A program made the position numbers and the translations under genes. DNA of 46,058 nucleotides, taken from the IMG/VR virus record IMGVR_UViG_3300025652_000135, positions 1 through 46,058 of that record. The stretch is one strand, 5' to 3'. The notes beneath the pieces are model-generated. The model was given only the letters and a program-made list of their open reading frames with translations. It searched no databases and was not told where the DNA came from. The stretch is from a virus. Of this stretch, positions 6,001 through 44,428 are shown in pieces (position 1 is the stretch's first letter; every line of letters starts with the position of its first letter).

Positions 6001-9000
6001 GGTCATACTCATATCGGTTTATCAGATGATTACTTAACTGGCCATACATTTAATACAAGCACTGGATTATTTGAAAGCACACTTCAAAGTGGTAGTACAG
6101 TTTCAGTTAATTTAGATGGGAGATATTCATTAACAGGTCATACACATGATTTTAATGAAATAACTAATACTGGTCATACACATACAATATCTGAAATAAC
6201 TGATTATATACCAACAGATGATTATTTAACAGGTGGTACATTTAATGAATTAACTGGGGATTTAGATTTAAATTTATTAAGTGGAAGTACAGTTTCCATT
6301 AATTTAGATGATAGATACAGTCTTACGGGTCATACTCATAATATGATAAGTAAAACCATTGACATTTACCCAACTGACTTGATTGGTTCTGGGTCAACAA
6401 AAGACCAAGTAATTCAATACATCAATGCTTTATCACATGTTAAAACTGACGATAATTCAGATTTATGGTTTAAAGTCATCCCTAATTATATGTTAGATTT
6501 TGGTAGTGAGGGTGATTTTACTGGTAGCCCTATGGCCTTGTCAATGTCAAGTGATGGGACTATATTATATTTAGGGTTACATAATAGTAATTGTACACAA
6601 TATATATTATCAACGCCTTGGGATGTTACAACCGCAACTTTAACTGCTAGTACAGCAACTTTAGGTCAAGGTGGGGGTCTTCATGTATCACCTGATGGGT
6701 TACACATAACATATACTAATGGTGATGTAACTGATGGTACTGTTGAGATTTATAGTATGAGTACACCCCATGATTTAAGTTCGTTAACGTTAGTTAGTAC
6801 AACTGCGTTCACACAAAATTTATTTCGTAATGAATTATTCATGACGGATGATGGGTTAAATTTATATACTAGCACTGGGTCAAATGTAAGGAGATATACA
6901 TTAGCAACACCTTATAATTTTTCAGGTGTAATATTATCGGATAGTTGGAATTTTAACACGACTCATGGATTTACATTCTCTAATGATTTAAAAACTTTTT
7001 TTGTGTTTCAATCGGGTGAAAATTTAAGGCAATATAATTTAACTGTTGCTGGTGATTTAACCCCTGTAACATTGGGTAATTATAGTGCTGAAGTTGATTT
7101 TGATTTTGTTAGTGGTAATTTCTTGAAATGTCAAATTTCACCAAATGGTAAAAGATTTGTTGTTACCACGTATCTATCAGCCCCAGATGTTTTTTCATTT
7201 GGGTTATCAACGGCAGATAATATTGGAGCGATAATTGAAGCGACTAACGCTGATATTGTAATTTATAGTGATTATTATAGATTGAAAAATTACCCTTTAG
7301 GTTTAATATCTGGGGTAACAAGTAATGACATTGATGAAATCACTCAAATAAAAAATAATGATGTTACAACTTTAATTAACTTAGAAGAAATATCTAGGAA
7401 TGATTACGTAACTGATGGGTCATTTAATCCAGCAAATGGGGAAGTAACCCTTACTAGGTTAAGTGGTGGAACTATTGTTTATGATTTAGATGGAAGGTAT
7501 TCATTAACTGGACATACTCATACAATATCTGAAATAACTGATTATATACCAACTGATGATTATTTAACTTCTGGTACATTTAATGAATTAACTGGGGATT
7601 TAGACTTAAATTTATTAAGTGGAAGTACAGTTTCTATTAATTTAGATGATAGATACAGTCTTAATGACCACACACACATTGGTTTATCAGATGATTACTT
7701 AATAACTCATACATTTAATACAAGTACTGGTTTATTTGAAAGCACACTTCAAAGTGGTAGTACAGTTTCAGTTAACCTTGATGGAAGGTATTCATTAACT
7801 GGACATACTCATACAATATCTGAAATAACTGATTATATACCAACTGATGATTATGTATCAAGTGGGTCATTTAACACATCAAATGGAGAAGTAACTTTAA
7901 CTAGATTAAGTGGTGGAACTATTGTTTATGATTTAGATGGAAGATATAGTCTTGATGACCACACTCACATTGGTTTATCTGATGATTACTTAGTTTCTGG
8001 TGATTTTGATGTAAATACTGGTGATTTAGATTTAAATCTTAAGTCAGGTTCAACTGTTACAATTAATTTAGATGATAGATATAGTCTTACGGGGCATACT
8101 CATATAGGTTTATCGGATGATTACTTAACAACTCATACGTTTAATACAAGTACTGGTTTATTTGAAAGTACCTTACAATCAGGTTCAACTGTTTCAGTTA
8201 ACCTTGATGGAAGATATAGTCTTACAACTCATACACACATTGGTTTATCAGATGATTATTTAACTAGCGGTACGTTTAATGAATTAACTGGTGATTTAGA
8301 TTTAAATTTATTAAGTGGAAGTACAGTTACCATTAATTTAGATGATAGATATTTGACTGATAGTACACTTCAAAGCGTATATGAAGCGTCTACACCTTCA
8401 ACGATAACAACTGATGCAACTAGAGGTTCATTAAAACTTAAAAGAGGCGTTGGGGCTAGTGTGTACCCCCTAGAGATACAAAATAGTGCTGGTAATAGTA
8501 ATTTTATAGTTAGAGATGATGGGTATTTTTCAGGTAATGGAGATATGTTTGTACTTGGAAATATAACTGCCCAAAATAGTTTAATAACTACGAGTGTCAG
8601 TGGTTTTGGCGCAAATATAACTACTTTATTTATAAATGGAGGTGCTGGTGATTTAACTAGAGGTGGTGGTATAGGATTTAAAAATAATGACGGTTCAATT
8701 TTTGGTGCAAATTACATTTTAAATAATAAATTCAGAATGGGTACCGTTACCGCTCACGATTGGGAATTTGTTAGGACAAATGTTGCTGTTGGTGGTATTG
8801 ATACTAATGGACTCTATTTAACTGGTAATATAAGAGCTAGTGGTGCAACACTATCTTCGTTGTCAACTCAAAATGATGAATTAATCACATTGATGATTGA
8901 TGGGAGTGGGGTTGTTGGTACAAGGGAGTTAGGTACTGGAGCTTTTGTAGCTAGTGGGGCAAGTAATACAGATAATTATGTTATTTCTGGTGATTTTAAC

Positions 9001-9430
9001 CCAGCAAATGGGGAAGTGACTTTAACAAGACTATCAGGTGGAACTGTTGTTTATGATTTAGATGGTAGGTATAGTCTTACGGGACATACACATGATTTTA
9101 ATGAAATAACTAACACAGGTCACACTCATACAATATCCGAAATAACTGATTATGTACCAACAGATGATTATTTAACTTCTGGTACGTTTAATGAATTAAC
9201 TGGTGATTTAGATTTAAATTTATTAAGTGGAAGTACAGTTTCTATTAATTTAGATGATAGGTATTCATTAACTGGTCATACACATACAATATCTGAAATA
9301 ACTGATTACATACCAACTGACGATTATTTAGTTTCTGGTACATTTAATGAGTTAACTGGAGATTTAGATTTAAATCTTCAATCAGGTTCAACAGTTTCAA
9401 TTAATTTAGATGATAGATATTTAACTGGGT
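1..9430 (+). repeat. In-frame ~132-bp tandem repeat array inside the giant fibre gene
   Basis: About 43 units of roughly 130-135 bp are seen, all in one reading frame and interrupted by four unrelated inserts. The protein repeat is tightly conserved, but the DNA uses alternating synonymous forms. LDDRY is written as aaccttgatgatagat or aatttagatgatagat, and SLTGH as agtcttacgggacat, tcattaacaggtcat or agcctaactggacat. The array is coding, not CRISPR. Confidence 0.85.
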
Positions 9431-10326
9431 TTACTGAAATCGTAGAGTCAGTAATAAACCCTTTAGATTCTTATTTTGGAAATCGAGTTAAACCTGTTTC
9501 AGATAATGAAGGGTTTTATGTAGAAAGTGCTCTCAACAAAGCAACAGGATACCTTGTAAATAACACAGATACGGTTGGAAATGCCGCTTTATCAGGATTC
9601 AGAGCAGTTATTAATAATGACGCATTTGGAAAAGGTATTTATGTAGGAGTACAGAATAGTAATTATTACGCACCTTGGTTAAGAGAACGTGGTCATATTA
9701 ACGGTAATGCTATAAATATTACAACTGGTGATAATACTGGTGATATAGTATTTTCATTAGGAAATACAGCTAGTGATAATATCACAGAAGCAGCCCAAGA
9801 TAAAGTACTTTTATTAAACACGGATAGAACAATTGTAGTTCCGAGTTTAACAACAACCTTAATTAGTAATGAAACTACTGGTAGGGTATTAATTACTAGG
9901 GAATACTTAACAGATAACTACACAGCAAATTCGGGTATTGATGGTGTCTATTTACCATTATCAGGTGGGACGCTAACTGGACCAGTAACAGGTACCACTT
10001 TCAATGTATCTAACGCATTGTTAGATTACCAGGAAAATGTAAATGTTGATACTGGCTCACCTAAAGTTATAGGTATAATTTCTAAGTTAAGTTATGATGC
10101 AGTATTTTTTGATTATGTGGTTAAAAATGGTAGTAATCTTAGAGCTGGTATTGTTATGGCAGTCCATGATGGAACATCTGTGACTTATACTGACACATCA
10201 ACCTCAGATTTAGGTGATACTTCAGGTGTAAGCTTTACAGTTGATATCTCAGGTAATGATTTAAGATTAAATGCCACCGTAACTACTGATAATTGGATAA
10301 TAAAAGCATTGATAAGAGGAATTTAA
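1..10326 (+). CDS. Giant repetitive tail fibre/adhesin protein, 5'-truncated
   Basis: The frame is open from base 1, so the gene starts outside the window; the first internal ATG at 280 is not a start. At least 3,441 aa are visible. By hand count about 43 copies of a ~44-aa unit end in NLD[DG]RY, joined by linkers such as SLTGHTHIGLSDDY or LTGFTETPNTDDY. Non-repeat inserts are: a module at about 1081-1578 with a second copy at 9430-9927; a phage fibre domain at about 5220-5930; a WD40/YVTN-like propeller at about 6475-7260; a GGGI-type domain at about 8600-8970; and LPLSGGTLTGPVTG at about 9950. The C-terminal domain (about 10010-10323, AFFDYVVKNGSNLRAG) is of a type recurrent at tail-fibre ends. 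The HTH motifs could bind metal as in T4 gp37. The product is expected to be a trimeric virion adhesin; the receptor is unknown. Confidence 0.85.
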   Translation, partial: DDRYSLTGHTHIGLSDDYLTGGTFNVSTGDLDLNLQSGSTVTINLDDRYLTGFTETPNTDDYLTGGTFNVSTGDLDLNLQSGSTVSINLDDRYLTGFTETPNTDDYLTGGTFNELTGDLDLNLQSGSTVTINLDDRYLTGFTETPNTDDYLSGVTFNTTNGDLTLTRVSGGTIVENLDGRYLTGFTESPNTDDYLTDHTFNTSNGLFESTLQSGSTVSVNLDGRYLPLSATTDDDYTTGTTFNANTGELEFTRLSGDTYSVNLDDRYSLTGHTHIGLSDDYLTGGTFNTSTGDLDLNLQSGSTVTINLDDRYLTGFTETPNTDDYITGHTFNTSTGLFESTLQSGGTVSVNLDGRYLTGFTETVESVINPLNSYFGNRVKPVSDNEGFYVESSNNKATGYLVNNTDTVGNAAISGYRATVNGDAFNEGVYIGIPNDSYFAPWLRAHGLITGKNLNIMVGDNTGDIVFSLGNTATNQITEGQQDKVLLLNTDRTIVVPSLTTTLISNETTGRVLITREYLTDNYTASSGDTINTDDYITGTTFNVSTGDLTLTRLSGGTIVENLDGRYSLTGHTHIGLSDDYTTGATFNTSDGIIEFTRLSGDTYNVDLDGRYLTISASTILNTDDYLTGGTFNELTGDLDLNLLSGSTVTINLDDRYALTGHTHIGLSDDYLTDHTFNTSNGLFESTLQSGGTVSVNLDGRYLPLSATTGDDYTTGTTFNPSSGIIEFTRLSGGTYNTDLGFTSGDTSNWDTAYNDSITGMTVTGSATKTITLQQKDGSTLTANFTDSTGGVGGSGDVVTGMTFNTLNGELTLRTLSGDTITEDLDGRYLTGFTETPNTDDYLVSGDFDELTGDLDLNLLSGSTVTINLDDRYSLTGHTHIGLSDDYLTGGTFNELTGDLDLNLQSGSTVTINLDDRYLTGFTETPNTDDYLTGGTFNVSTGDLDLNLQSGSTVTINLDDRYSLTGHTHTISEITDYIPTDDYTTGTTFNTNTGELEFTRLSGNTYSVNLDDRYSLTGHTHIGLSDDYLTGHTFNTSTGLFESTLQSGSTVSVNLDGRYSLTGHTHVGLSDDYLTGGTFNTSTGELDLNLLSGSTVTINLDDRYSLTGHTHEISDITDFTDNSTNWDIAYDNSITGATFNTGDGVLTLHDVGDDNNITVDLDGRYLTGFTETPNTDDYLTSGTFNELTGDLDLNLQSGSTVSINLDDRYSLTGHTHIGLSDDYLVSGDFDVNTGDLDLNLQSGSTVTINLDDRYSLTGHTHIGLSDDYLVSGDFDVNTGNLDLNLQSGSTVTINLDDRYLTGFTETPNTDDYLVSGDFNELTGNLDLNLLSGSTVSINLDDRYSLTGHTHIGLSDDYLTGGTFNELTGDLDLNLQSGSTVTINLDDRYALTGHTHIGLSDDYVSNSDFNTTNGDLTLTRVSGGTIVENLDGRYSLTGHTHDFNEITNTGHTHTISEITDYIPTDDYVSNGDFNTGTGEVTLTRLSGGTVVYDLDGRYSLTGHTHIGLSDDYLITHTFNTSTGLFESTLQSGSTVSVNLDGRYSLTGHTHIGLSDDYLVSGDFDVNTGDLDLNLQSGSTVTINLDDRYSLTGHTHTISEITDYIPTDDYTTGTTFNTNTGELEFTRLSGSTYSVNLDDRYSLTGHTHIGLSDDYITSGNFNTANGEVTLTRVSGGTVVYDLDGRYLNTSAYTDTFVTGFTYNGLTNTFDIERNEDLPDLSVTLTTVSGLTVNGDITVTGTGIFNEVVAVNVSATTINPVDFIQFNTGYTGNTIVEGRIYWDEDNGTLSLGMHGSNVQQQIGEELFYYVKNQSGATIENGRVVYAAGTLGSSGKILGEYMIADGTIPVKYTLGIATEDIINGDDGYVTDFGLVRGINATGAPYGETWNDGDLLWVSPTIVGGLTNIEPISPNLKIELAIVIHNDANGSVFVRPHRYPHFYDLQETTWSGGSESNLDIIQWDSTLSGWTITNTPSFISISATSISGDTIYSGDTNLTEIFSTTGHTHIGLSDDYLTGHTFNTSTGLFESTLQSGSTVSVNLDGRYSLTGHTHDFNEITNTGHTHTISEITDYIPTDDYLTGGTFNELTGDLDLNLLSGSTVSINLDDRYSLTGHTHNMISKTIDIYPTDLIGSGSTKDQVIQYINALSHVKTDDNSDLWFKVIPNYMLDFGSEGDFTGSPMALSMSSDGTILYLGLHNSNCTQYILSTPWDVTTATLTASTATLGQGGGLHVSPDGLHITYTNGDVTDGTVEIYSMSTPHDLSSLTLVSTTAFTQNLFRNELFMTDDGLNLYTSTGSNVRRYTLATPYNFSGVILSDSWNFNTTHGFTFSNDLKTFFVFQSGENLRQYNLTVAGDLTPVTLGNYSAEVDFDFVSGNFLKCQISPNGKRFVVTTYLSAPDVFSFGLSTADNIGAIIEATNADIVIYSDYYRLKNYPLGLISGVTSNDIDEITQIKNNDVTTLINLEEISRNDYVTDGSFNPANGEVTLTRLSGGTIVYDLDGRYSLTGHTHTISEITDYIPTDDYLTSGTFNELTGDLDLNLLSGSTVSINLDDRYSLNDHTHIGLSDDYLITHTFNTSTGLFESTLQSGSTVSVNLDGRYSLTGHTHTISEITDYIPTDDYVSSGSFNTSNGEVTLTRLSGGTIVYDLDGRYSLDDHTHIGLSDDYLVSGDFDVNTGDLDLNLKSGSTVTINLDDRYSLTGHTHIGLSDDYLTTHTFNTSTGLFESTLQSGSTVSVNLDGRYSLTTHTHIGLSDDYLTSGTFNELTGDLDLNLLSGSTVTINLDDRYLTDSTLQSVYEASTPSTITTDATRGSLKLKRGVGASVYPLEIQNSAGNSNFIVRDDGYFSGNGDMFVLGNITAQNSLITTSVSGFGANITTLFINGGAGDLTRGGGIGFKNNDGSIFGANYILNNKFRMGTVTAHDWEFVRTNVAVGGIDTNGLYLTGNIRASGATLSSLSTQNDELITLMIDGSGVVGTRELGTGAFVASGASNTDNYVISGDFNPANGEVTLTRLSGGTVVYDLDGRYSLTGHTHDFNEITNTGHTHTISEITDYVPTDDYLTSGTFNELTGDLDLNLLSGSTVSINLDDRYSLTGHTHTISEITDYIPTDDYLVSGTFNELTGDLDLNLQSGSTVSINLDDRYLTGFTEIVESVINPLDSYFGNRVKPVSDNEGFYVESALNKATGYLVNNTDTVGNAALSGFRAVINNDAFGKGIYVGVQNSNYYAPWLRERGHINGNAINITTGDNTGDIVFSLGNTASDNITEAAQDKVLLLNTDRTIVVPSLTTTLISNETTGRVLITREYLTDNYTANSGIDGVYLPLSGGTLTGPVTGTTFNVSNALLDYQENVNVDTGSPKVIGIISKLSYDAVFFDYVVKNGSNLRAGIVMAVHDGTSVTYTDTSTSDLGDTSGVSFTVDISGNDLRLNATVTTDNWIIKALIRGI
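1081..1578 (+). repeat. Mobile fibre module, copy A
   Basis: This is a non-repeat domain beginning TVESVINPL and ending near REYLTDNYTA. Its DNA is nearly identical to copy C (16570-17045) at both the 5' end and the centre. Its last ~85 bp nearly match copy B (9430-9927). Confidence 0.85.
9430..9927 (+). repeat. Mobile fibre module, copy B
   Basis: This is the second copy of the VESVINPL module in the same giant gene. The first ~100 bp and last ~85 bp are close to copy A, while the centre (about 9530-9840) has diverged at the protein level (for example GVQNSNYYAPWLRERG against GIPNDSYFAPWLRAHG). The mosaic suggests gene conversion. Confidence 0.8.
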
Positions 10327-16152: not shown

Positions 16153-17904
16153 ATGGCATTTACCACAAAAATAGATTATTCAAATAATAGACAAATAAAA
16201 CAATTTCAGTTAACCAATACACAATTATCTGGTACGACAACATTTGGTGTTACAGATAATTTAATACCTGAAAATGTTAGTGGTGATACTATTAATATCG
16301 ATGCTCTACAATATATTAGGGCTAGAGGGCTTATATTACCTAACGCTTTACCGAATATCGTTTCTGGTGGTACATATCAATTATTAGGTAGGGATAATAT
16401 AACTGGTAAAATTGTTGAAGTTGATGCACTTTCTGGTGGTACAACTGGTGGAACAACAAATGATTACACAACTAGTGCTACGTTTAACACAAGTACAGGT
16501 CAAGTTGATTTCAACAGATTATTAGGTGGTACATATAGCGTTAATTTAGATGGTAGATATTTAACTGGGTTTACTGAAACAGTAGAGTCAGTAATAAACC
16601 CTTTAAATTCTTATTTTGGAAATCGAGTTAAACCTGTTTCAGATAATGAAGGGTTTTATGTAGAGGGTTCTAATAATAAGGCAACAGGATATCTTGCAAA
16701 TAACACAGATACGGTTGGAAATGCAGCCATAGCTGGATTTAGAGCAACTATTAACGGAGATGCATTTGATGAAGGTGTTTATTTAGGTATACAAAACGAT
16801 TCTTATTACGCTCCATGGTTAAGAGCGCATGGTCTTATTACAGGTAAGAACCTAAATATAATGGTTGGTGATAATACTGGGGATATAGTATTCTCATTAG
16901 GGAACACAGCAACTAATCAAATAACTGAAGGTCAACAAGATAAAGTTCTTTTATTGAATACCGATAGAACGATAGTGGCACCAAGTTTAACAACAGCTTT
17001 AATTAATGCAGAAGCCACTGGAAGAGTTTTAATTACTAAAGAATGGTTTCAAGCACAAACGATAACTGGTGGAACAACAAATACAGATGATTATTTAACA
17101 ACTCATACATTTAATACAAGTACTGGTTTATTTGAAAGTACCTTACAATCGGGTTCAACAGTAAGTGTTAATTTAGACGGTAGGTATAGTCTTAATAACC
17201 ACACTCACATTGGTTTATCTGATGATTATTTAACTGGTGGTACATTTAATGAATTAACTGGGGATTTAGATTTAAATCTTAAGTCAGGTTCAACTGTCAC
17301 TATTAATTTAGATGATAGATATAGTCTTGATGACCATACACACATAGGTTTATCAGATGATTATTTAACAACTCATACATTTAACACCTCAAATGGATTA
17401 TTTGAAAGTACCTTACAATCGGGTTCAACAGTAAGTGTTGATTTAGATGGTAGATATAGTCTTACAACTCATACACATAATTTATCTAACTTAAATAATG
17501 ACATTGGATTTATAACTGCATCTTTTTTAGGTATACAAAAAATTAAAGTAACTTTATCAGCATCACAAATCGAAAATATAGGTCAAGGTCCAGTGCAATT
17601 GTTACCAGCAGCTGGTGTAGGTACTGTAATTAATATAATATCGGCTGTTGCTAGACTTAACTTTGGAACCATTCCCTTTGATGATAATACCTTAGATATA
17701 GCTGACGGTAGTTTTGGTACGGCTACCCCAGGTGGTTTTTTATCAGCAACCTCAGACCAAATTGAAAGGTTGGTACGCAATTTAGATTCTGGTGGGAGTT
17801 TATTAGCAGAGAATAGTGCTGTCATCGCATCAGGAACAAGTTCAATTGCAACTGGAGATGGTACAGTAGATATTTATTTAACTTATGAAATAATATCCCT
17901 ATAA
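16153..17904 (+). CDS. Tail fibre protein with shared repeats and tip domain
   Basis: This 583-aa fibre protein is built from the same parts as the giant gene. It has a unique N-terminus (~residues 1-95), then NLDGRY-ended repeats and HTH linkers, the VESVINPL module (copy C), and three further repeats. The C-terminal domain (~residues 455-583: KVTLSASQIENIGQGPVQLL to DIYLTYEIISL) is of a kind recurrent at phage fibre tips. GAGG lies about 12 nt before the ATG, and TATATAAG sits just upstream rather than the TATTTATA motif. The N-terminus probably attaches to the virion and the C-terminus is the tip. With three fibres sharing modules, alternate receptor-binding arms or layered branches are plausible. 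Confidence 0.8.
   Translation: MAFTTKIDYSNNRQIKQFQLTNTQLSGTTTFGVTDNLIPENVSGDTINIDALQYIRARGLILPNALPNIVSGGTYQLLGRDNITGKIVEVDALSGGTTGGTTNDYTTSATFNTSTGQVDFNRLLGGTYSVNLDGRYLTGFTETVESVINPLNSYFGNRVKPVSDNEGFYVEGSNNKATGYLANNTDTVGNAAIAGFRATINGDAFDEGVYLGIQNDSYYAPWLRAHGLITGKNLNIMVGDNTGDIVFSLGNTATNQITEGQQDKVLLLNTDRTIVAPSLTTALINAEATGRVLITKEWFQAQTITGGTTNTDDYLTTHTFNTSTGLFESTLQSGSTVSVNLDGRYSLNNHTHIGLSDDYLTGGTFNELTGDLDLNLKSGSTVTINLDDRYSLDDHTHIGLSDDYLTTHTFNTSNGLFESTLQSGSTVSVDLDGRYSLTTHTHNLSNLNNDIGFITASFLGIQKIKVTLSASQIENIGQGPVQLLPAAGVGTVINIISAVARLNFGTIPFDDNTLDIADGSFGTATPGGFLSATSDQIERLVRNLDSGGSLLAENSAVIASGTSSIATGDGTVDIYLTYEIISL
16570..17045 (+). repeat. Mobile fibre module, copy C
   Basis: This third copy of the VESVINPL module lies in a different gene. 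Long stretches are identical to copy A: about 16570-16660 against 1081-1171, and about 16824-16970 against 1335-1480. The last 60 bp differ (LINAEATGRVLITKEW against LISNETTGRVLITREY). Confidence 0.85.
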
Positions 17905-28872: not shown

Positions 28873-29616
28873 ATGGGATTACCTAAAGGTTTTATTAAGA
28901 AAGTAAAATTTATAAATCAGAATGTTGGACCTGAAAAGAGACAAGATTATCTTGATGATATAGATTATAAAGGGAGTTATTTACCAAAAAGTGTTGGTTA
29001 TGAGGATATTGATAGAACTTTTATTGAATTTGTTGATAAAGAGATGATAATATCTATCGATGGTGAATCAGTCCCAGTTCTTTTTCTAACAATTCAAAGG
29101 TGGGCTGAATTTTCTAAAACATGGACTTTTTCAGATAAATTTAAAAATACTAAAATGCCCTTCATTACTATAGTTAGAAAACCTGATATTCAAGTTGGTA
29201 CTAACCAAGCTGGTATATGGAATATACCTGGTAAGCAATTATATACATATATGAAAGTACCTACGTTCATCGATGGTCGTAAAGGTATGGACACTTATAA
29301 AATACCACAACCTACATCAGTTGATGTTACATATGAAGTTAGATTCTTTTGTAATAGAATGAAAGATTTAAATAAATTACATAAAGTGGTTCAAACTACT
29401 TTCAATTCCAGACAATTTTATATTAATGTGAATGGACATCCAATGCCTATTCATTTAGAAAGTATTGGTGATGAAAGTCAAATAAACGATTTTGATAGAA
29501 GAAGGTTTTATGTTCAAAATTTCGAAATGAAAGTGTTGGGATATATTTTAGATGAAAATGATTATGAACACATTCCAACAATTAATAGAGGTAATGTTAA
29601 GTTTAAAGAAGAATAA
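28873..29616 (+). CDS. Virion structural protein, first of a tandem pair
   Basis: This 247-aa protein is closely related to the next gene over its whole length. Shared landmarks are KFINQNVGPEKRQDYLDDID, TIQRWAEFSK, FITIVRKPDIQVGTNQ, NIPG..LYTYMKVPTF, QPTSVDVTYEVRFFCNRMKD, NVNGHPMPIHLE and DFDRRRFYVQNFEMKVLG. The aromatic and charged pattern suggests a beta-rich virion protein such as a neck, tail-terminator or baseplate component; I cannot place it further. It ends near ENDYEHIPTINRGNVKFKEE without the C-terminal domain of its twin. Confidence 0.7.
   Translation: MGLPKGFIKKVKFINQNVGPEKRQDYLDDIDYKGSYLPKSVGYEDIDRTFIEFVDKEMIISIDGESVPVLFLTIQRWAEFSKTWTFSDKFKNTKMPFITIVRKPDIQVGTNQAGIWNIPGKQLYTYMKVPTFIDGRKGMDTYKIPQPTSVDVTYEVRFFCNRMKDLNKLHKVVQTTFNSRQFYINVNGHPMPIHLESIGDESQINDFDRRRFYVQNFEMKVLGYILDENDYEHIPTINRGNVKFKEE
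28906..28972 (+). repeat. Near-identical DNA block between duplicated structural genes
   Basis: This block is repeated at 29650-29716 with at most one change. Both encode the KFINQNVGPEKRQDYLDDID segment. A second high-identity block surrounds about 29463-29510 and 30212-30260. Confidence 0.75.
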
Positions 29617-29622
29617 TATTGT

Positions 29623-30654
29623 ATGTCACAAGGATATAAAAAAAATGTAAAATTTATAAATCAGAATGTTGGACCTGAAAAGAGACAAGATTATCTTGAT
29701 GATATAGATTATAAAGGAAGTTATTTACCAAAAAGTATCTATTATGAGGATATTGACAAGACTTTTATTGAATTTGTTGATGATATTTTAGAAATAGAGG
29801 TTAATGGAGTGAAAGTCCCAGTCATTTTTCTAACAATTCAAAGGTGGGCTGAATTTTCTAAATTATGGGATACTTCAGATAAATTTAAAAATGTTAAAAT
29901 ACCCTTCATTACTATAGTCAGAAAACCTGACATCCAAGTTGGTACTAACCAAGCTGGTATATGGAATATACCAGGTAATAAGTTATATACATATATGAAA
30001 GTACCTACTTTTAACGGGGGTCGTAAGGGTGGTGATTTATATAAAATTCCACAACCTACGTCAGTTGACGTTACATATGAAGTTAGATTCTTTTGTAATA
30101 GAATGAAAGATTTGAATATGTTTAATCGAAAGTCTCAATTAACATTTCAATCAAGGCAATACTATATCAATGTGAATGGACATCCAATGCCTATTCATTT
30201 AGAAAAAATTGGTGATGAAAGTCAAATAAACGATTTTGATAGAAGAAGGTTTTACGTTCAAAATTTCGAAATGAAAGTATTGGGATATATTTTAGATGAA
30301 GATGATTATGAATTCGTTCCAACAATTAATAGAGCTATCATATTTACTGAAATAATAGATAAAGTAATTAAACCTAAAGTGGTTATTAGGTCATTTAAAG
30401 ATATTGATGAGATATCTTTAAATGTGATTATAAAAGCGAATCATTTTACTGATGAGTTTATTATTAATTGTGCATATGACGCACTTATAACATCAATAAA
30501 TTATGTGATAAATGTCACAAATGTAAATATAGCAATTAATGGTATCCAACAAACATTTCCATTTAACATCTCAGCTAATGAAGAAATGGTGTTAACTGTT
30601 GATAGAGATGATACAAAAGAAGCTAAATTTGAAATTAAAGGATTAGTTAAATAA
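29623..30654 (+). CDS. Virion structural protein, second of a tandem pair with extra C-terminal domain
   Basis: This 343-aa protein matches its upstream twin through residue ~240 and then adds about 95 residues (FTEIIDKVIKPKVVIRSF to EAKFEIKGLVK), which look like an Ig-like beta domain. Blocks of ~68 bp are identical or nearly so between the two genes (for example near 28906 and 29650), which suggests recent duplication or gene conversion. It begins 6 nt after the twin and its stop overlaps the next start by one base (TAATG). The two may form a heteromeric ring or be alternatives for the same virion position. Confidence 0.7.
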   Translation: MSQGYKKNVKFINQNVGPEKRQDYLDDIDYKGSYLPKSIYYEDIDKTFIEFVDDILEIEVNGVKVPVIFLTIQRWAEFSKLWDTSDKFKNVKIPFITIVRKPDIQVGTNQAGIWNIPGNKLYTYMKVPTFNGGRKGGDLYKIPQPTSVDVTYEVRFFCNRMKDLNMFNRKSQLTFQSRQYYINVNGHPMPIHLEKIGDESQINDFDRRRFYVQNFEMKVLGYILDEDDYEFVPTINRAIIFTEIIDKVIKPKVVIRSFKDIDEISLNVIIKANHFTDEFIINCAYDALITSINYVINVTNVNIAINGIQQTFPFNISANEEMVLTVDRDDTKEAKFEIKGLVK

Positions 30655-32024
30655 TGAGTAATATTAATAAGACATTTGTATTTGAGACTGTATTAATTAG
30701 TGGTGGTACAACTGGGACAACAGTTGAGTTCATAACAGGTGCTACATTTAATACTGGGTCTGGTGACTTAATTTTAGAAACTGTTTCTGGAAATACAATT
30801 AACGTACCTTTAGATGGTAGATACACTTTAACAGGTCACACACATAATATATCTGAAATAACTGGATTCACAGATAATTCAATTAATTGGGATATAGCTT
30901 ATGACGACTCAATTACTGGTATAACTGTAAGTGGTACTAACACAAAAACAATTACTCTTCAACAAAGAGACGGTAATATATTAACCACTAATTTCACCGA
31001 TAATTCAAATGATTCTAGTGACGTAGTTACGGGAATGACATTTAATACTGCAACAGGAGTGTTGGCATTAACAACGTTATCAGGTGATACAATAACCGAA
31101 GATTTAGATGGTAGATATGCTTTATCAGGTGATACAAGTACAAACACCGATGATTATGTTACAGGGGTTTCTTTTAACACTTCAAATGGGTTATTAGAAT
31201 TCACTAGATTATCTGGCGGTACATTTAACGTAGATTTAGATGATAGATATAGCCTAACAGGACATACACATGACTTATCATCATTAAATAATGACACAGG
31301 TTTTATAACAGGATTTACAGACACTAATAATAACGATTATTTAACTGGAGCCACATTTAACCCAAATGATGGGGTATTGAGTTTAAATTTATTATCAGGT
31401 TCAACAGTTCAAGTTGATTTAGATAATAGATATGCTTTATCAGGTGATACAAGTACAAATACCGATGATTATGTAACTTCAGCATCATTTAATGCCTTAA
31501 ACGGTATTCTTGAATTGACTAGAATTTCAGGTTCGACAGTTCAAGTTGATTTAGATAATAGATATACTTTATCAGGTGATACAAGTACAAATACCGATGA
31601 TTATGTAACTAGTGGTGATTTTAATATAACTACTGGTGATGTAACTTTGACTATGTTATCAGGTGGTACTGTTGTTTATAATTTAGATAATAGATATGCG
31701 TTATCAGGTGATACAAGTGCTAATACTGATGATTATTTAACTGGGGCTACCTTTAATACATCTGATGGTGTATTAGAATTTAATAGATTATCAGGTGGTA
31801 CCGTTCAAGTAAATTTAGATGATAGGTATTTTATTGGTGGACCAATAACATTTTCATGTGAAACCTCTGGCACTACAACTTACATTGGTTATGGTGAAAT
31901 TAATGCTTGTAAGATAAGAAAAATGGACACTATTTCTGGGTCCACATATACAGCATTTTGGTCAAATGGAGAAGAGACGTTAGATAAATTATGGTCAAAT
32001 AGGTTAAGTTATTTGTATTTTTAA
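30654..32024 (+). CDS. Tail fibre protein with shared repeats
   Basis: This 456-aa protein is built from the same NLD[DG]RY-ended repeats as the giant fibre, with linkers of type YALSGDTSTNTDDYVT and HTHN/HTHD motifs. A segment at about 31015-31110 (VVTGMTFNTATGVLALTTLSG) parallels the giant gene near 2393-2480. The C-terminal ~60 residues (FSCETSGTTTYIGYGEINAC to WSNRLSYLYF) are a small tip domain with two cysteines. The start overlaps the structural gene by one base (TAATG), so the fibre is co-translated with virion genes rather than sitting in the fibre locus. Confidence 0.75.
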   Translation: MSNINKTFVFETVLISGGTTGTTVEFITGATFNTGSGDLILETVSGNTINVPLDGRYTLTGHTHNISEITGFTDNSINWDIAYDDSITGITVSGTNTKTITLQQRDGNILTTNFTDNSNDSSDVVTGMTFNTATGVLALTTLSGDTITEDLDGRYALSGDTSTNTDDYVTGVSFNTSNGLLEFTRLSGGTFNVDLDDRYSLTGHTHDLSSLNNDTGFITGFTDTNNNDYLTGATFNPNDGVLSLNLLSGSTVQVDLDNRYALSGDTSTNTDDYVTSASFNALNGILELTRISGSTVQVDLDNRYTLSGDTSTNTDDYVTSGDFNITTGDVTLTMLSGGTVVYNLDNRYALSGDTSANTDDYLTGATFNTSDGVLEFNRLSGGTVQVNLDDRYFIGGPITFSCETSGTTTYIGYGEINACKIRKMDTISGSTYTAFWSNGEETLDKLWSNRLSYLYF

Positions 32025-38767: not shown

Positions 38768-41173
38768 ATGAGTTCTAACAATAGAGTATTCGTAAGCCCA
38801 GGAGTTTATACTTCAGAAAAAGATTTATCATTCGTAACACGTCAAGTTGGTGTAACAACATTGGGGTTAGTTGGTGAGACCACAAAAGGTCCAGCTTTCC
38901 AACCAATATTTGTTTCTGACTTTAACGAGTTCAAATCATTCTTTGGTGGGTTAAACGCAACAAAAGTTACCGACACTGGTTACCCAAAATATGAATTGCC
39001 ATATATAGCAAAATCATATTTTACAAAATCAAATCAACTTTATGTAACAAGAGTTTTAGGTTTTTCAGGATATGATGCTGGACAATCTTGGGCTATAACA
39101 GCCGATAATAACCAAGTAATAGCACTTTTAAGAAGTAGAGCTTCTTATGACGCTTCTGAAAACCTAATTTGGGGTACAAGTGATTTATCAATTGACCCAA
39201 CTTTAACTGGTTCAACAACTGACGCTAAAGCAGATTTCACTCTTAGTGGTTCTGGGTTTTCTTATACAGTTTCACTTGATTCTACAAAGAAAAGTTTCAT
39301 TACTAGAGTATTAGGAACTAAAGCTGATGTTGGTCAAGCCCCTATTTATGTTGAAGAAATTTATTCTAATATGTTAGAAGAATTAATCACTAATGTAGAA
39401 ATAACTGGATTAAGTACAACTTTGGTTGATAATGGAACTACATTTTCTGATTACAAAACTGAATATTTACCAGCTGTTACACCATGGGTTATCTCAGAGG
39501 TTAATGGTGAGGTTATTAAAAAATTATTTAGATTAATTACAATTTCTGATGGTACTTCTGCAAATTCAGAAGTTAAAATTTCTATCGAAAATATTAAACC
39601 TGACGCTAGAGAATTCGATGTTAGAGTTAGAGCATTTTACGATACTGACGCAAATCCAATTACATTAGAAAGATATTCTAGATGTACTATGGACCCAACT
39701 TCTGATAATTTTATTGGTAGAAGAATCGGTACGTTAGATGGTTTTTACGCATCTAATTCAAATTACGTATTACTTGAATTGGATATTGATGAAGATACAT
39801 CAACTTCATTTCCAGCTGGTTTCACAGGTTTACCTGCAAGGGTTTACAGTGGTGGTGAATTAGCACCTTCAATTAACTATAATACCGAATACTTACCTTA
39901 CTCTAAAATTAGAAAAATCTATTTAGGTTTATCTGATACTGTAGGTATTGACCAAAATTTCTTTAACTACTTAGGTACTGATATTACGGTAACAAGTGGT
40001 ATGACTAATGGATTCCATATGGATATCGATGCGAGTGGATTGACAGTCAATGGTTCTATATTAGACGCTGGTCTTTATCCATTTAAAACTGACGATGATT
40101 TAGATTTAACTGGCACTACTTATAATAAAATTTATTCAAGAAAATTCACGATGGCACCTTACGGTGGTTTTGATGGATGGGATATATATAGAGATGGTAG
40201 AACTAATACCGACACTTACGCTAAAGGTCAAACTAAAAGTGATTTAGCTGAATCTAGTGGTGCGATTGATATAAAAATAACAAGTACTGGTGACGAAGGA
40301 ACTACTTCTGATTACTATGCTTATTTTGAAGCAATTAACACTTTCAATAACCCTGAAGCAATTAACATTAATGTATTAGCAACACCAGGTATTGATACTT
40401 TAAATAATACAAATTTAGTTGACGCTACTATTGAAATGGTAGAAGAAAAAAGATGTGATTCAATATATATTGCAACAACACCAGATTATGAAAATGAAGC
40501 GGTGATTGAGGTTGATGATTTAGTTAATAGATTAGATAACACAGGAATAGATAGTAACTATACTGCAACATACTGGCCTTGGATACAAGTAAAAGATAGT
40601 GATAATGAAGTATTAGTTTACTTACCACCAACTAGAGATGTTGTTAGAAACATTGCATTAACTGATAATGTATCATTCCCATGGTTTGCTGTGGCGGGTG
40701 TTCAAAGAGGTGTTGTAAGTGGTATCAAAGCAAGAAAAAAATTAACTTTAGATGAAAGAGATACATTGTATGAGGGTAGAATTAACCCAATCGCAACGTT
40801 TGCTTCTGAAGGTTTAATTATATTTGGTAATAAAAACTTACAAGTTAAAGAAACTGCATTAAACAGACTTAACGTTAGAAGATTATTATTACAAGCTAGA
40901 AAATTAATTTCTGCTGTATCAATAAGATTATTATTTGAACAAAATGATGAGGTAGTAAGAAATCAATTCAAGTCATTGGTTAACCCAATTCTTGAAAACA
41001 TTAGAAGTGAAAGAGGTCTTACAGATTTCCGTGTGGAAGTTGATACTTCACCAGAATCAATTGATAGAGGTGAGTTAAATGGTAGAATTTTCATCAAACC
41101 AACTAGAGCTTTAGAGTTCATAACTGTTGAATTTGTTGTAATGAATACTGGTGCTTCTTTTGAAGACGTATAA
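38768..41173 (+). CDS. Tail sheath protein (T4 gp18-like)
   Basis: This 801-aa protein is the contractile sheath subunit. The N-terminus FVSPGVYTSEKDLS (~residues 8-21), LGLVGETTKGPAFQP (~residues 32-46) and a Phe-rich turn FNEFKSFFGG are standard sheath features. Domain III follows the usual order: EEKRCDSIYIATTP (~residues 557-570), the PWIQVKD...VYLPPTRDVV block (~605-630) and VSFPWFAVAGVQRGVVSG (~635-652). The C-terminal handshake region is VRRLLLQARKLISAVS to ALEFITVEFVV (~710-790). It is longer than T4 gp18 (659 aa); extra sequence at ~130-330 is probably a surface domain. A hairpin follows before the tube gene. Confidence 0.95.
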   Translation: MSSNNRVFVSPGVYTSEKDLSFVTRQVGVTTLGLVGETTKGPAFQPIFVSDFNEFKSFFGGLNATKVTDTGYPKYELPYIAKSYFTKSNQLYVTRVLGFSGYDAGQSWAITADNNQVIALLRSRASYDASENLIWGTSDLSIDPTLTGSTTDAKADFTLSGSGFSYTVSLDSTKKSFITRVLGTKADVGQAPIYVEEIYSNMLEELITNVEITGLSTTLVDNGTTFSDYKTEYLPAVTPWVISEVNGEVIKKLFRLITISDGTSANSEVKISIENIKPDAREFDVRVRAFYDTDANPITLERYSRCTMDPTSDNFIGRRIGTLDGFYASNSNYVLLELDIDEDTSTSFPAGFTGLPARVYSGGELAPSINYNTEYLPYSKIRKIYLGLSDTVGIDQNFFNYLGTDITVTSGMTNGFHMDIDASGLTVNGSILDAGLYPFKTDDDLDLTGTTYNKIYSRKFTMAPYGGFDGWDIYRDGRTNTDTYAKGQTKSDLAESSGAIDIKITSTGDEGTTSDYYAYFEAINTFNNPEAININVLATPGIDTLNNTNLVDATIEMVEEKRCDSIYIATTPDYENEAVIEVDDLVNRLDNTGIDSNYTATYWPWIQVKDSDNEVLVYLPPTRDVVRNIALTDNVSFPWFAVAGVQRGVVSGIKARKKLTLDERDTLYEGRINPIATFASEGLIIFGNKNLQVKETALNRLNVRRLLLQARKLISAVSIRLLFEQNDEVVRNQFKSLVNPILENIRSERGLTDFRVEVDTSPESIDRGELNGRIFIKPTRALEFITVEFVVMNTGASFEDV

Positions 41174-41259: not shown

Positions 41260-41748
41260 ATGAGTGATTTACTAATGAAAATGCCAGTACCTTATGAGCC
41301 AAAGAAAAAGAATAGATGGTTAATGAGATTTCCAGCTGAATTAGGTATTCAACAATGGTGGTTATCTAGCGCATCACGTCCTTCAATTACGCAAGGCGAA
41401 GTTGAAATACCATTCTTAAACACATCAACGTGGGTTATTGGTAGATTTACATGGGAAACTATTGAAGTAGTGTTTAGAGACGCTATTGGACCATCTACAT
41501 CTCAAGCTATTATGGAATGGGTTAGATTACAATCTGAATCTGTAACAGGTAGACAAGGTTATGCTGCTGGATATAAAAAAGATGTTGAAATAGAAATGTT
41601 AGACCCAACTGGAGTTGTTGTTGAGAAATGGCAATTACAAGGGACTATGTTAACCAACGTTGGATTTGGTGATTTATCAATGGAAGATGATGGGATAGCT
41701 GAAGTTAACGCAACATTAAGATTTGATAGAGCAATTTTATTATTCTAA
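41260..41748 (+). CDS. Tail tube protein (T4 gp19-like)
   Basis: This 162-aa protein is the inner tube subunit, close to T4 gp19 (163 aa) in length. Landmarks are KNRWLMRFPAELGIQQWWLSS (~residues 17-37), RPSITQGEVEIPFLNTSTWV, FTWETIEVVFRDAIGPSTSQ (~68-87), MEWVRLQSESVTGRQGYAAGYK (~89-110), and the strands EIEMLDPTGVVVEKWQLQG and GIAEVNATLRFDRAIL. Sequence and position after the sheath agree. It should polymerise inside the sheath onto the baseplate hub. It has its own promoter motif, as expected for a high-copy protein. Confidence 0.95.
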   Translation: MSDLLMKMPVPYEPKKKNRWLMRFPAELGIQQWWLSSASRPSITQGEVEIPFLNTSTWVIGRFTWETIEVVFRDAIGPSTSQAIMEWVRLQSESVTGRQGYAAGYKKDVEIEMLDPTGVVVEKWQLQGTMLTNVGFGDLSMEDDGIAEVNATLRFDRAILLF

Positions 41749-42019: not shown

Positions 42020-42364
42020 ATGAAGATACCAATAATTAAATACAACGACAACTTTTTAAAAAACCTTAGCATTTTTATGTCAATAGGTGGAATTACATTA
42101 TTCCCATTTATAATCTTACGTGAGAAGTATAAAAATAACCCAAAAAATATAATTAGACATGAAAGTATTCATATAAAACAACAAATTGAAATGTTGGTAA
42201 TACCATTTTATGTTTTTTATACATTAGAGTGGTTTATTAAATTATTTATATTTGGTACTAAAGCATATCAAAACCTTTCTTTTGAAAGAGAGGCTAAAAC
42301 AAATGAAGGAAACCCAGATTATCTTAAAACTAGAAAATTCTGGGCATGGGTTAAATATTTATAA
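42020..42364 (+). CDS. Membrane-associated HExxH zinc metalloprotease-like protein
   Basis: This 114-aa protein has HESIH (47-51), the HExxH zinc-binding motif, in IIRHESIHIKQQIEM. A likely third ligand, Glu, lies in LSFEREAKTNEG (89 or 91). Two hydrophobic segments are present: ISI..FPFIIL (~residues 17-32) and MLVIPFYVFYTLEWFIKLFIF (~58-78). The set (HExxH, Q-x2-EM, aromatic TM helix, FE.EA..NE, YLK.RKFWAW) matches a small protein type I associate with Bacteroidota chromosomes and their phages; substrates are unknown. It opens the operon of the tagged genes at 42370-43254, 5 nt upstream of the first tag gene. Confidence 0.65.
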   Translation: MKIPIIKYNDNFLKNLSIFMSIGGITLFPFIILREKYKNNPKNIIRHESIHIKQQIEMLVIPFYVFYTLEWFIKLFIFGTKAYQNLSFEREAKTNEGNPDYLKTRKFWAWVKYL

Positions 42365-42369
42365 AAGTT

Positions 42370-42522
42370 ATGAGAAGACAAGATAAAAAAACGGCTATGG
42401 TGGAAGCTAATAAGCGTTTTCAAGAAAGGGTTAATGCCGAAGACCCAACGATTCAGGAGAAAAAAATAGAGTATACATATGTTCCAGACATATTTCCTGA
42501 ATTATCTAGAATGTTAAAATAA
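42370..42522 (+). CDS. Small tagged protein 1 (MRRQDKK N-terminus)
   Basis: This 50-aa protein has the N-terminal tag MRRQDKKTAMVEANKRFQER shared with the next two genes. After the tag only ~30 residues follow (VNAEDPTIQEKKIEYTYVPDIFPELSRMLK), acidic and without recognised fold. The ATG-to-AAA 21-bp DNA at the start is identical to that of tag gene 3. Its stop overlaps the next start (TAATG). It is too short for most gene finders but is supported by the shared tag and tight packing. Confidence 0.7.
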   Translation: MRRQDKKTAMVEANKRFQERVNAEDPTIQEKKIEYTYVPDIFPELSRMLK

Positions 42523-42989
42523 TGAGAAGGTACGATAAAAAAATACACATGAAGAAGGTAAACCTTCTTTTTGAACAAAGATATTTAAATGAAACAATTA
42601 GTGCTAGTGACGCTCACACTGATTGGGGTGCCATGATGTCCGTTTTAAAAGGGGATAGAAATGTGGCATTTCTTCTTGGCCCATTTATTGAAAAATGGTT
42701 CAATAAATACATTAAAGATAATAGTAGTGTTGATTTGATGGTTGTTAAGCGAGATGGTAATGGTATTTATGGTGATGCCTATATATTATACAGTGATTTA
42801 GAAAAAGCAAAACACTTACATAGTATCACATCAAAACATGGTGGTTATTTAGCAGATTATTCACCAGAAGAAGCTATTGAAAATGGGGAAGCGTTAGAAT
42901 ATAATGATAATGATATCAAAACTTTTGTTGATGACCATTATGGGTTTGAAGCTTATGATAAAGTAAAAAACAATGAGAAGACAAGATAA
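42522..42989 (+). CDS. Tagged protein 2 (MRRYDKK N-terminus)
   Basis: This 155-aa protein begins MRRYDKKIHMKKVNLLFEQR, the same tag, followed by YLNE. The body (~residues 25-150) is unlike the other two. It looks alpha/beta with FLLGPFIEKWFNKYIKD and SVDLMVVKRDGNG, then IYGDAYILYSDLEKAKHLHS, which may be a small adaptor or enzyme domain. No catalytic motif is clear. Its last residues (NNEKTR) are coded, out of frame, by the start of tag gene 3. A tagged cargo or internal protein is one reading. Confidence 0.7.
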   Translation: MRRYDKKIHMKKVNLLFEQRYLNETISASDAHTDWGAMMSVLKGDRNVAFLLGPFIEKWFNKYIKDNSSVDLMVVKRDGNGIYGDAYILYSDLEKAKHLHSITSKHGGYLADYSPEEAIENGEALEYNDNDIKTFVDDHYGFEAYDKVKNNEKTR

Positions 42990-43254
42990 AAAAATTGCAA
43001 TGAAAAAAGCTAATATGCTTTTTGAACAAAGATGTAATGAAAGTGCATTTAGTTGGGATGGGAAGTATGCCAATGAAGAAGATATTGATGAAGCGATGTT
43101 TTTAGGTGATGATATGGAAACTATTGAGGAAACTGAAGAAATTGAAGAAGATTGTGGGTGTCTATTAAATCAACCAGAACCAACTGATGTTGAAAGTAGT
43201 CAATGGTTTTCTGATGAAGATGGTGAAAGAATCACCGATATGGAATTAGATTAG
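42973..43254 (+). CDS. Tagged protein 3 (MRRQDKK N-terminus), acidic
   Basis: This 93-aa protein begins MRRQDKKIAMKKANMLFEQR. The rest is strongly acidic, with a run of Glu/Asp at ~residues 35-63 (DDMETIEETEEIEEDCGC), a CGC motif, and a WFSDEDGE.ITDMELD end. It overlaps tag gene 2 by 17 nt. No fold is recognised; it may be disordered. The basic tag with an acidic body resembles scaffold-like or DNA-mimic proteins, but this is speculative. Confidence 0.7.
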   Translation: MRRQDKKIAMKKANMLFEQRCNESAFSWDGKYANEEDIDEAMFLGDDMETIEETEEIEEDCGCLLNQPEPTDVESSQWFSDEDGERITDMELD

Positions 43255-43315: not shown

Positions 43316-44428
43316 ATGGAAAATAAACCACAAGTATTTCCAGCATCAGATAAAATGTCTGACGCTATGAAAGAGGCTAACGAAACGGGCACTAAAATTG
43401 CTGCCCAAGCCAGTAATGAAATAGGTGTTATCGAAAAGAATAAACCTAATGGTGAGTTAGATGCTCAAGCCCAAATGACTAAAGATAGTCTTGATAAGTT
43501 ATCTGAACAGCTAAGATTAAGAGACGAATTAGTTGCTAAGAAAAAAGCAGAGTCTCAAGGTATTGAATCGGATTTTATCGATGAAAGTAAAGCTAAAATC
43601 ACTTATTCACAACCCGAAGTTAAATCACACAAAAATTTTGAGTTACCTGATGAGGATAAATATGCCGAATTAAGTAGACCACAAGAAAACGTACCGTTTG
43701 ACCTAATAAAATTGCCAAGTGAAGGGTTATTATACAAAAACTGTAAAAGTTCATTAAAAGTAGCTTATTTAAACGCTATGGATGAGAATATCATCACAAA
43801 CCCAAACCTTTTAAAGTCAGGAAAATTTTTAGAAATTCTAATTAATAGAAAAATGTTAGATTCTTCAATTAAATATAAAGATTTACATGTTGGAGACAGG
43901 AATGCAATCATGATTTGGTTACGTGCTACTGGTTATGGTGCAATGTACAATATTAAATTATCAGACCCTGAAAATGAGTATAAACAATTTGATGCTGAAA
44001 TAGATTTGTCTAAATTGGGTATTAAGTATTTAACTGAAAAACCTAATGAAGATGGTCACTTTACATATAAATTACCTATTAGTCAAAGTACAGTTACTTA
44101 TAGATTATTAAATGTTGGTGATGTTGATGAGATTGAAGAGCATATTGAAAAAATGACTGAAGAATCTGGCCCCGAATTTAATGATGCATCAACATATACT
44201 TTGAAAAGGCAAATTATTGCAATTGATGGTAATTATGATAAAGAAATCGTTAGTGATTTCATTGATAAGAAAATGAGAATTGGTGACGTTAGGACTTTTA
44301 GAAAAAAAGTTAATGAAATTGAATCTGGCATTGATATGAATATCACTGTTCAGACTCCTGGGGGTGGGTCAATCGACACGTTTCTTCCCCTTAACCTATC
44401 ATTTTTTTGGCCTGAACTTGGAGTATAA
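43316..44428 (+). CDS. Baseplate protein, T4 gp26-like family
   Basis: This 370-aa protein has the T4 baseplate (gp26-type) core at ~residues 120-360. Landmarks are FDLIKLPSEGLLYKN, VAYLNAMDENIITNPNLLKSG, LHVGDRNAIMIWLRATGYGAMY, a thermodynamic tail with YLTEKPNEDGHF, and the C-terminal DTFLPLNLSFFWPELGV, where FFWP is a family end. The first ~115 residues are charged and helical (AQAQMTKDSLDKLSEQLRLRDELVAKKKAESQ) and probably an added coiled coil. The gene ends inside the next, in a different frame. In T4, gp26 acts in baseplate hub assembly. Confidence 0.85.
   Translation: MENKPQVFPASDKMSDAMKEANETGTKIAAQASNEIGVIEKNKPNGELDAQAQMTKDSLDKLSEQLRLRDELVAKKKAESQGIESDFIDESKAKITYSQPEVKSHKNFELPDEDKYAELSRPQENVPFDLIKLPSEGLLYKNCKSSLKVAYLNAMDENIITNPNLLKSGKFLEILINRKMLDSSIKYKDLHVGDRNAIMIWLRATGYGAMYNIKLSDPENEYKQFDAEIDLSKLGIKYLTEKPNEDGHFTYKLPISQSTVTYRLLNVGDVDEIEEHIEKMTEESGPEFNDASTYTLKRQIIAIDGNYDKEIVSDFIDKKMRIGDVRTFRKKVNEIESGIDMNITVQTPGGGSIDTFLPLNLSFFWPELGV

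Follow-up and report, generated by a model that had tools for sequence, protein, structure and literature searches.

A modular N-terminal tag on unrelated small proteins of uncultured T4-like phages, probably a head-targeting propeptide

The window (the whole stretch of DNA analysed, 46,058 nucleotides) is a 46 kb virus record with a tail sheath gene, a tail tube gene and a baseplate-hub-like gene, and it is a fragment of an uncultured T4-like phage (Table 1). The best matches of the tail tube are uncultured LR756508, Microcystis Mel-JY01, Rhodothermus RM378 and Flavobacterium immuto, and the hub-like gene shares 30% identity with the baseplate hub of Flavobacterium phage immuto (E=3e-25). A Shine-Dalgarno-like motif lies upstream of just 4 of 31 starts. 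Judged from the nearest tail-tube matches and the scarce Shine-Dalgarno motifs, the lineage probably resembles the Far-T4 phages of Bacteroidota (PMC7198788). A probable tail fibre, a repetitive open reading frame (ORF) of 3348 aa with dozens of GFTETPNTDDYL..FN..TGDLDLNLQSGSTVTINLDDRY-like repeats, lies elsewhere in the window at positions 280-10326. Repeats related to these are also seen in the ORFs at 16153-17904 and 30654-32024, and two adjacent paralogues (28873-29616 and 29623-30654) have a common N-terminal region of ~240 aa, with a C-terminal extension on the second.

The gap between the tube and hub-like genes holds a 49-aa ORF, an HExxH zincin-like gene and three consecutive small genes on the plus strand, whose products start with versions of one sequence: MRRQDKKTAMVEANKRFQER in gene 1, MRRYDKKIHMKKVNLLFEQR in gene 2 and MRRQDKKIAMKKANMLFEQR in gene 3. 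A preliminary description of this DNA had pointed out these three ORFs and their shared start, the identity of the first 21 bp of genes 1 and 3 and the lack of resemblance between the bodies, all of which we confirm. When the gene 3 tag is used as a query against the window, exactly three places are found (E = 8.8e-13, 3.4e-7 and 2.6e-5), so the common start is not due to chance. The length of the tag had been given as ~20 aa; the shared start stands, while a fixed length of 20 does not, since the actual tags span 20-30 residues (e.g. borders at E30 in gene 1 and E24 in gene 2). Genes 2 and 3 carry a short form (..LFEQRxLNE) and gene 1 a divergent form of the long length; the tag of gene 3 retains an internal L-F-E at residues 16-18. 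Genes 1 and 2 overlap by 1 nt and genes 2 and 3 by 17 nt, so that the final codons of gene 2 are read from the tag DNA of gene 3. The three bodies gave no Pfam or PHROG match worth naming. For gene 2, an AlphaFold model built from three sequences was uninformative (pLDDT 54), Foldseek returned no match at E<=0.001, and matches among PDB sequences had E values of 0.06 or worse.

Table 1. Features of the tail module and tagged genes (positions in the window unless a locus is named) and ORFs of related loci that hold a piece of the capsid protein
Feature	Position	Strand	Remarks
Tail sheath (gp18-like)	38768..41173	+	
Tail tube (gp19-like)	41260..41748	+	Upstream border of insertion site
HExxH zincin-like gene	42020..42364	+	PHROG 15610, annotated 'protease'
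Tagged gene 1	42370..42522	+	50 aa; predicted mature part about 20 aa (KKIEYTYVPDIFPELSRMLK)
Tag of gene 1, residues 1-30	42370..42459	+	I-Q-E at 28-30, same position as in long-form tags
Tagged gene 2	42522..42989	+	155 aa; no fold assigned to body
Tag of gene 2, residues 1-24	42522..42593	+	Border L22-N23-E24
Tagged gene 3	42973..43254	+	93 aa, acidic body
Tag of gene 3, residues 1-23	42973..43041	+	Degenerate border C-N-E
Baseplate-hub-like gene	43316..44428	+	Downstream border of insertion site; PHROG 150, E=9e-4
ORF with capsid piece, L237	792-1262	-	
ORF with capsid piece, L238	522-1157		
ORF with capsid piece, L239	474-1037		
ORF with capsid piece, L240	432-1016	-	
ORF with capsid piece, L241	502-939		

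Beyond the window, the tag is a widespread modular start on at least 38 unrelated body families. The first two relatives, both divergent, were found by a search with gene 2, whose homologues there show 68% (L007) and 64% (L008) identity; well over a hundred further loci were recovered with an alignment of tags and by scanning IMG/VR for the tail tube. Iteration gave 96 distinct tagged ORFs, the bodies of which fall into 38 clusters, and the tag always begins at residue 1 of the protein. The preliminary description held that its reading would fall if no related phage had more such genes; the window has only the three, and its relatives have many more, on unrelated bodies. The consensus in relatives is MRRxDKKxNxxKxNLLxEQRxL(ESKGLI)NE, with the border after the last glutamate, and the common long form reads MRRFDKKxNIxKVNLLAEQRYLESKGLINE. 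L007 has four consecutive tagged genes at the same site as the window. In L008, three ORFs have a clear or shortened tag and a fourth resembles gene 1. Relatives of gene 1 that match it in the tag and have a short body like its own occur in L008, L010, L011, L012, L017-L020 and L028, and bodies related to gene 3 in L007, L010 and L011. In one locus (L142:1775-3055), a single uninterrupted 427-aa ORF has a tag at residue 1 and another at residue 238, which would suit either a fusion of two tagged genes without a stop or a sequencing error. None of 50,697 cultured phage records has the tag at E<=10, and it was not found in bacterial or archaeal genome contigs either, so a tag search gives no link to a host. 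Among open-licence papers, we found no description of it.

The codons of the tags bear on how they came to be shared. In L007, one pair of tags is identical over 22 aa and has 8 synonymous codon differences and 0 amino-acid-changing ones, and another pair has 9 synonymous versus 2 amino-acid differences. Differences that are mostly synonymous indicate that the peptide is under selection. The same codon comparison rules out, in L007, 'one recent tandem duplication' as the source of the tags, an origin that the preliminary description had named as fatal to its reading. Near-identical tag DNA within a contig is found as well (21 of 22 codons in L073, 19 of 22 in L138 and L180), so tags have also spread recently. 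This near identity, together with the 21 identical nucleotides of genes 1 and 3, would suit a shared start that is a by-product of recombination, that is, a patch of DNA homology for cassette swapping with a functionless encoded peptide. We regard this as very unlikely, given the synonymous pattern in L007 and given that conservation is positional and stops at a glutamate. Spread of the tag may be helped by the DNA patch, but selection keeps the peptide. An ordinary gene family, in which one gene was duplicated in tandem, the tails diverged and the start is residual homology, is extremely unlikely: the genes are adjacent and on the same strand and related bodies recur in neighbouring contigs, but the bodies belong to different known families (ADP-ribosyltransferase (ART), Dps-like, kinase), body families also occur under a different tag, and no body comes near the conservation of the start, which ends in a sharp cliff.

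The position of this cliff is the glutamate of an L/I/V-x-E motif. Across 72 long tags, column information is 3.48 bits at E30 and then 1.32 and 0.55, and an exact [LIV]28-x-E30 is present in 59 of them. With V allowed beside L and I, a [LIV]-x-E ending at residues 22-32 occurs in 77 of 85 tags versus 158 of 1157 (14%) equal-sized windows of the bodies; for the subset of loci reached mainly by way of the tail tube, with L007 and the window added, the counts are 28/31 tags versus 42/347 body windows. The conservation of residues 12-20 is partly ascertainment, since this stretch was used as the search query, and the border lies outside it. In 13 of 87 tags, the border motif is missing at either expected position. 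An internal L16-x-E18 is retained in 84 of 87 tags and is possibly a second site. The tag-closing triplets include INE, ITE, ISE and LNE. In T4, gp21 cuts after L/I-X-E, which frees internal proteins from their capsid targeting sequence (CTS; PMC9026906). At the level of sequence, the abrupt end of conservation in the tag matches this cleavage rule of the T4 prohead protease.

Head genes are absent from the window and the short-tag relatives, which are fragments, and the protease is known from other tag-bearing relatives. Large relatives show the gene order terminase, portal, Peptidase_S77, gp22-like gene and gp23; one S77 gene of the lineage lies at L117:2068-2787. Peptidase_S77 scores above the cut-off in 10 of 21 tag-bearing records and gp23-type capsid matches are found in 13 of the 21, with a Gp23 Pfam match at 1e-72 in the lineage; G001, without S77, breaks off within the capsid gene. 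Among capsid proteins sampled from the lineage, all 80 have an [LIM]-x-E (INE, LTE, LNE, LSE and others) preceding SGSFET or GAFET, and this motif aligns with the T4 gp23 cleavage site, where the cut falls between FLTE and A. The triplets INE and LNE are found at both the capsid and the tag borders. A contig with S77 (G037) comes from the same metagenome as L016, a near-identical copy of the window, and its tetranucleotide profile correlates with that of the window (r=0.965); the two share no 25-mers and little gene content. Joining them was dropped as there is no sequence overlap, so the S77 of G037 is only a hint for the window phage. G037 also has a tail-tube-like paralogue outside the tail module (L343, 27449-27913, minus strand; 38% identity to the window gp19), and at other loci tube-like paralogues lie inside the tube-hub gap (e.g. 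L058, L080). Gp23 Pfam matches further revealed small ORFs (~150-210 aa) by an IF3-like gene that contain ~50 aa of major capsid protein sequence (MPIVRRVMAATVGQDLVAVQPL-like; Table 1), and L238 apparently has further rearranged capsid pieces.

Tagged genes are found on the head side of these genomes as well. Immediately 3' of the capsid gene, L243 has three consecutive MRR-tagged genes and L248 has one; a single tagged gene also follows the capsid gene at a distance of 86 nt in L266 and of 237 nt in L283. A second N-terminal tag, MKxLIKxLLRE, is carried by other genes of the same genomes, many of them beside the capsid gene. There are two body families that come with either tag (E=9e-27 to 5e-43), and their tag-2 copies lie next to the capsid gene as well. 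One is a 'GLWYxI..WIDWV' family with 38-45% identity across tags (E down to 5e-43), and the other is a 140-aa family with 48% identity (E=2e-38) that lies 3' of the capsid gene under tag 1 in L248 and under tag 2 in L247. Since the bodies of two families can be found under either tag, which comes close to a natural swap experiment, we argue that both tags do one job. Within G001, positions 48-62 kb (L100, L101) form a mixed island of MRR-tagged and MKxLIKxLLRE-tagged genes with tRNA nucleotidyltransferase and kinase/phosphodiesterase genes among them. Two genes in the head gene cluster of G022 (L243, 7592-7912 and 13543-13947) possibly share a third N-terminal tag (KINESQLEYLVKKVIKEE-like).

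The location of the window cassette could suggest a different destination. If the tag sent proteins to the tail or baseplate (tube filling or baseplate decoration) and not to the head, a cassette between tube and hub would be expected, and this is where tags lie in the window and in 31 of the 64 loci that hold both borders. The remaining gaps, however, house homing-endonuclease-like genes, other untagged genes or nothing, and the hub directly follows the tube in the nearest cultured phages, immuto and Mel-JY01; because untagged genes are also housed there, the gap looks like a general insertion site. Moreover, the tag is also seen right behind the major capsid gene and in the G001 island, far from both the tube-hub and capsid sites, its border matches the prohead-protease rule, and the enzyme-like bodies are swapped with the tag found beside the capsid gene. 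On balance, a tail address is unlikely.

Several cargo families could be named. An ART-PolyVal domain (PF18760) lies behind the tag in L007 (E=1.9e-13; 51.8 bits vs the curated cut-off of 31.2), with a homologue in L011. ART-like YHGT proteins, assigned from weak Pfam matches and alignment, follow the tag in L030, L073 and L197; H33 of YHGT is invariant in five homologues, and bodies starting with YHGT/YHS are also found behind tag 2. The AlphaFold model of the ART cargo (5 sequences) was too poor to use (pLDDT 45). In L155, the body is Dps-like and its PHROG 858 match starts at residue 29, where the tag ends, and in L165 it is an AAA_33 (P-loop) kinase. The cargo of tag 2 includes a tRNA nucleotidyltransferase and an AAA_33/phosphodiesterase protein.

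The neighbouring HExxH gene belongs to a family (PHROG 15610) common in crAss-like phages and adjoins the tags in the window and in L008. The preliminary description thought it potentially relevant; no HExxH gene lies beside the tags of L007, and we rejected it as the tag-processing enzyme and judge it incidental to the tag. A membrane role, also raised there, finds no support, as the tag has no hydrophobic stretch for insertion. An amphipathic helix was discarded too, the hydrophobic moment being no better than that of shuffles. More broadly, the tag might act within the infected cell, as a signal for sorting (to the membrane or the phage factory) or for regulation (translational coupling), with or without HExxH processing. 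The basic K/R-rich start, the overlapping genes and the HExxH neighbour would fit such a role, but with the hydrophobic segment absent, no HExxH gene at L007 and tags far from it in other records, we give it next to no weight.

Taken together, we assign a probability of about 0.77 to the shared start being a cleavable head-targeting propeptide, like the T4 capsid targeting sequence but unrelated to it in sequence. The preliminary description had likened the layout to T4 internal proteins, and this likeness has gained from the unrelated tagged bodies, the protease-type border, the relatives with S77 and gp23, the capsid-side genes and the ART cargo. Cargo would carry at its N-terminus a label of about 20-30 residues that binds the internal scaffold of the prohead, and would in this way become part of the immature head. 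Peptidase_S77, the gp21-type prohead protease, presumably present in the window phage too, would cut after the glutamate of the label-closing L/I/V-x-E, and the freed bodies would stay in the head and travel into the host with the DNA. Points against a propeptide are the place of the window cassette in the tail module and the C-N-E border of gene 3; furthermore, tag 2 is also on enzymes that possibly work in the cytoplasm. We see even odds for a broader claim, namely that a widespread uncultured lineage fills its heads with dozens of effector families (ADP-ribosyltransferases, Dps-like proteins, kinases, tRNA-repair enzymes) by means of a general virion-loading code, whose N-terminal labels, at least two and interchangeable, are unrelated to those of T4.

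Phage-injected proteins are known for few phages because they are small and fast-evolving. If the tag is a head-loading label, injected effectors could be listed from their first 30 residues, and the label alone would identify them in metagenomes, where the phage group concerned, hardly cultured so far, is common. Such labels would also be short natural means of loading chosen proteins into phage heads, and they would show the T4 principle arrived at anew, or recast, with labels of unrelated sequence. ADP-ribosyltransferases recur as cargo of both tags, which turns the take-over of the host at entry into an idea that can be tested.

T4 Alt is the classic head-packaged, injected ADP-ribosyltransferase. 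Like it, the MRR-tagged ART is predicted to be packaged in the head and to have an N-terminal part that can be removed, but it is far smaller and belongs to ART-PolyVal (PF18760), not to the Alt/VIP2 clade; the former is described with an H-Y-D active site and the latter with R-S-E (PMC5512222). Another parallel is offered by the T4 internal proteins IPI, IPII and IPIII, whose CTS is likewise a short N-terminal sequence on proteins with unrelated mature parts and ends in L/I-x-E (PMC9026906, PMC3012670). The cargo of the T-even CTS consists of diverse defence proteins with only the CTS in common (PMC3012670). As in T4, clustered small variable genes and a T4-type protease with a gp23-type capsid are found in the tagged lineage. 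In contrast, the MRR tag has about 20-30 residues versus 10 in T4 IPII/IPIII, is on at least 38 cargo families, coexists with a second interchangeable tag in the same phages and lies beside the tail tube or capsid gene; the starts of T4 IPII/IPIII and IPI (NC_000866) show no resemblance to it. Our best reading is that the tag would work like the T4 CTS without being homologous to it, as there is no sequence similarity and the two are not of the same length. A further parallel is found in giant phages, where SPN3US gp245 and phiKZ gp175 remove propeptides from the N-termini of head-packaged proteins in a glutamate-specific way, with propeptides of 20-24 residues in two SPN3US proteins; in phiKZ, however, the motif is S/A-x-E, and the parts of that source consulted describe no shared modular tag on unrelated cargo (PMC10052503). 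Lastly, tag 2 is like the MRR tag in being N-terminal, in ending in L-x-E, in lying beside the capsid gene and in having two cargo families in common, whereas its length of about 11 residues and its pattern place it nearer to the T4 CTS.
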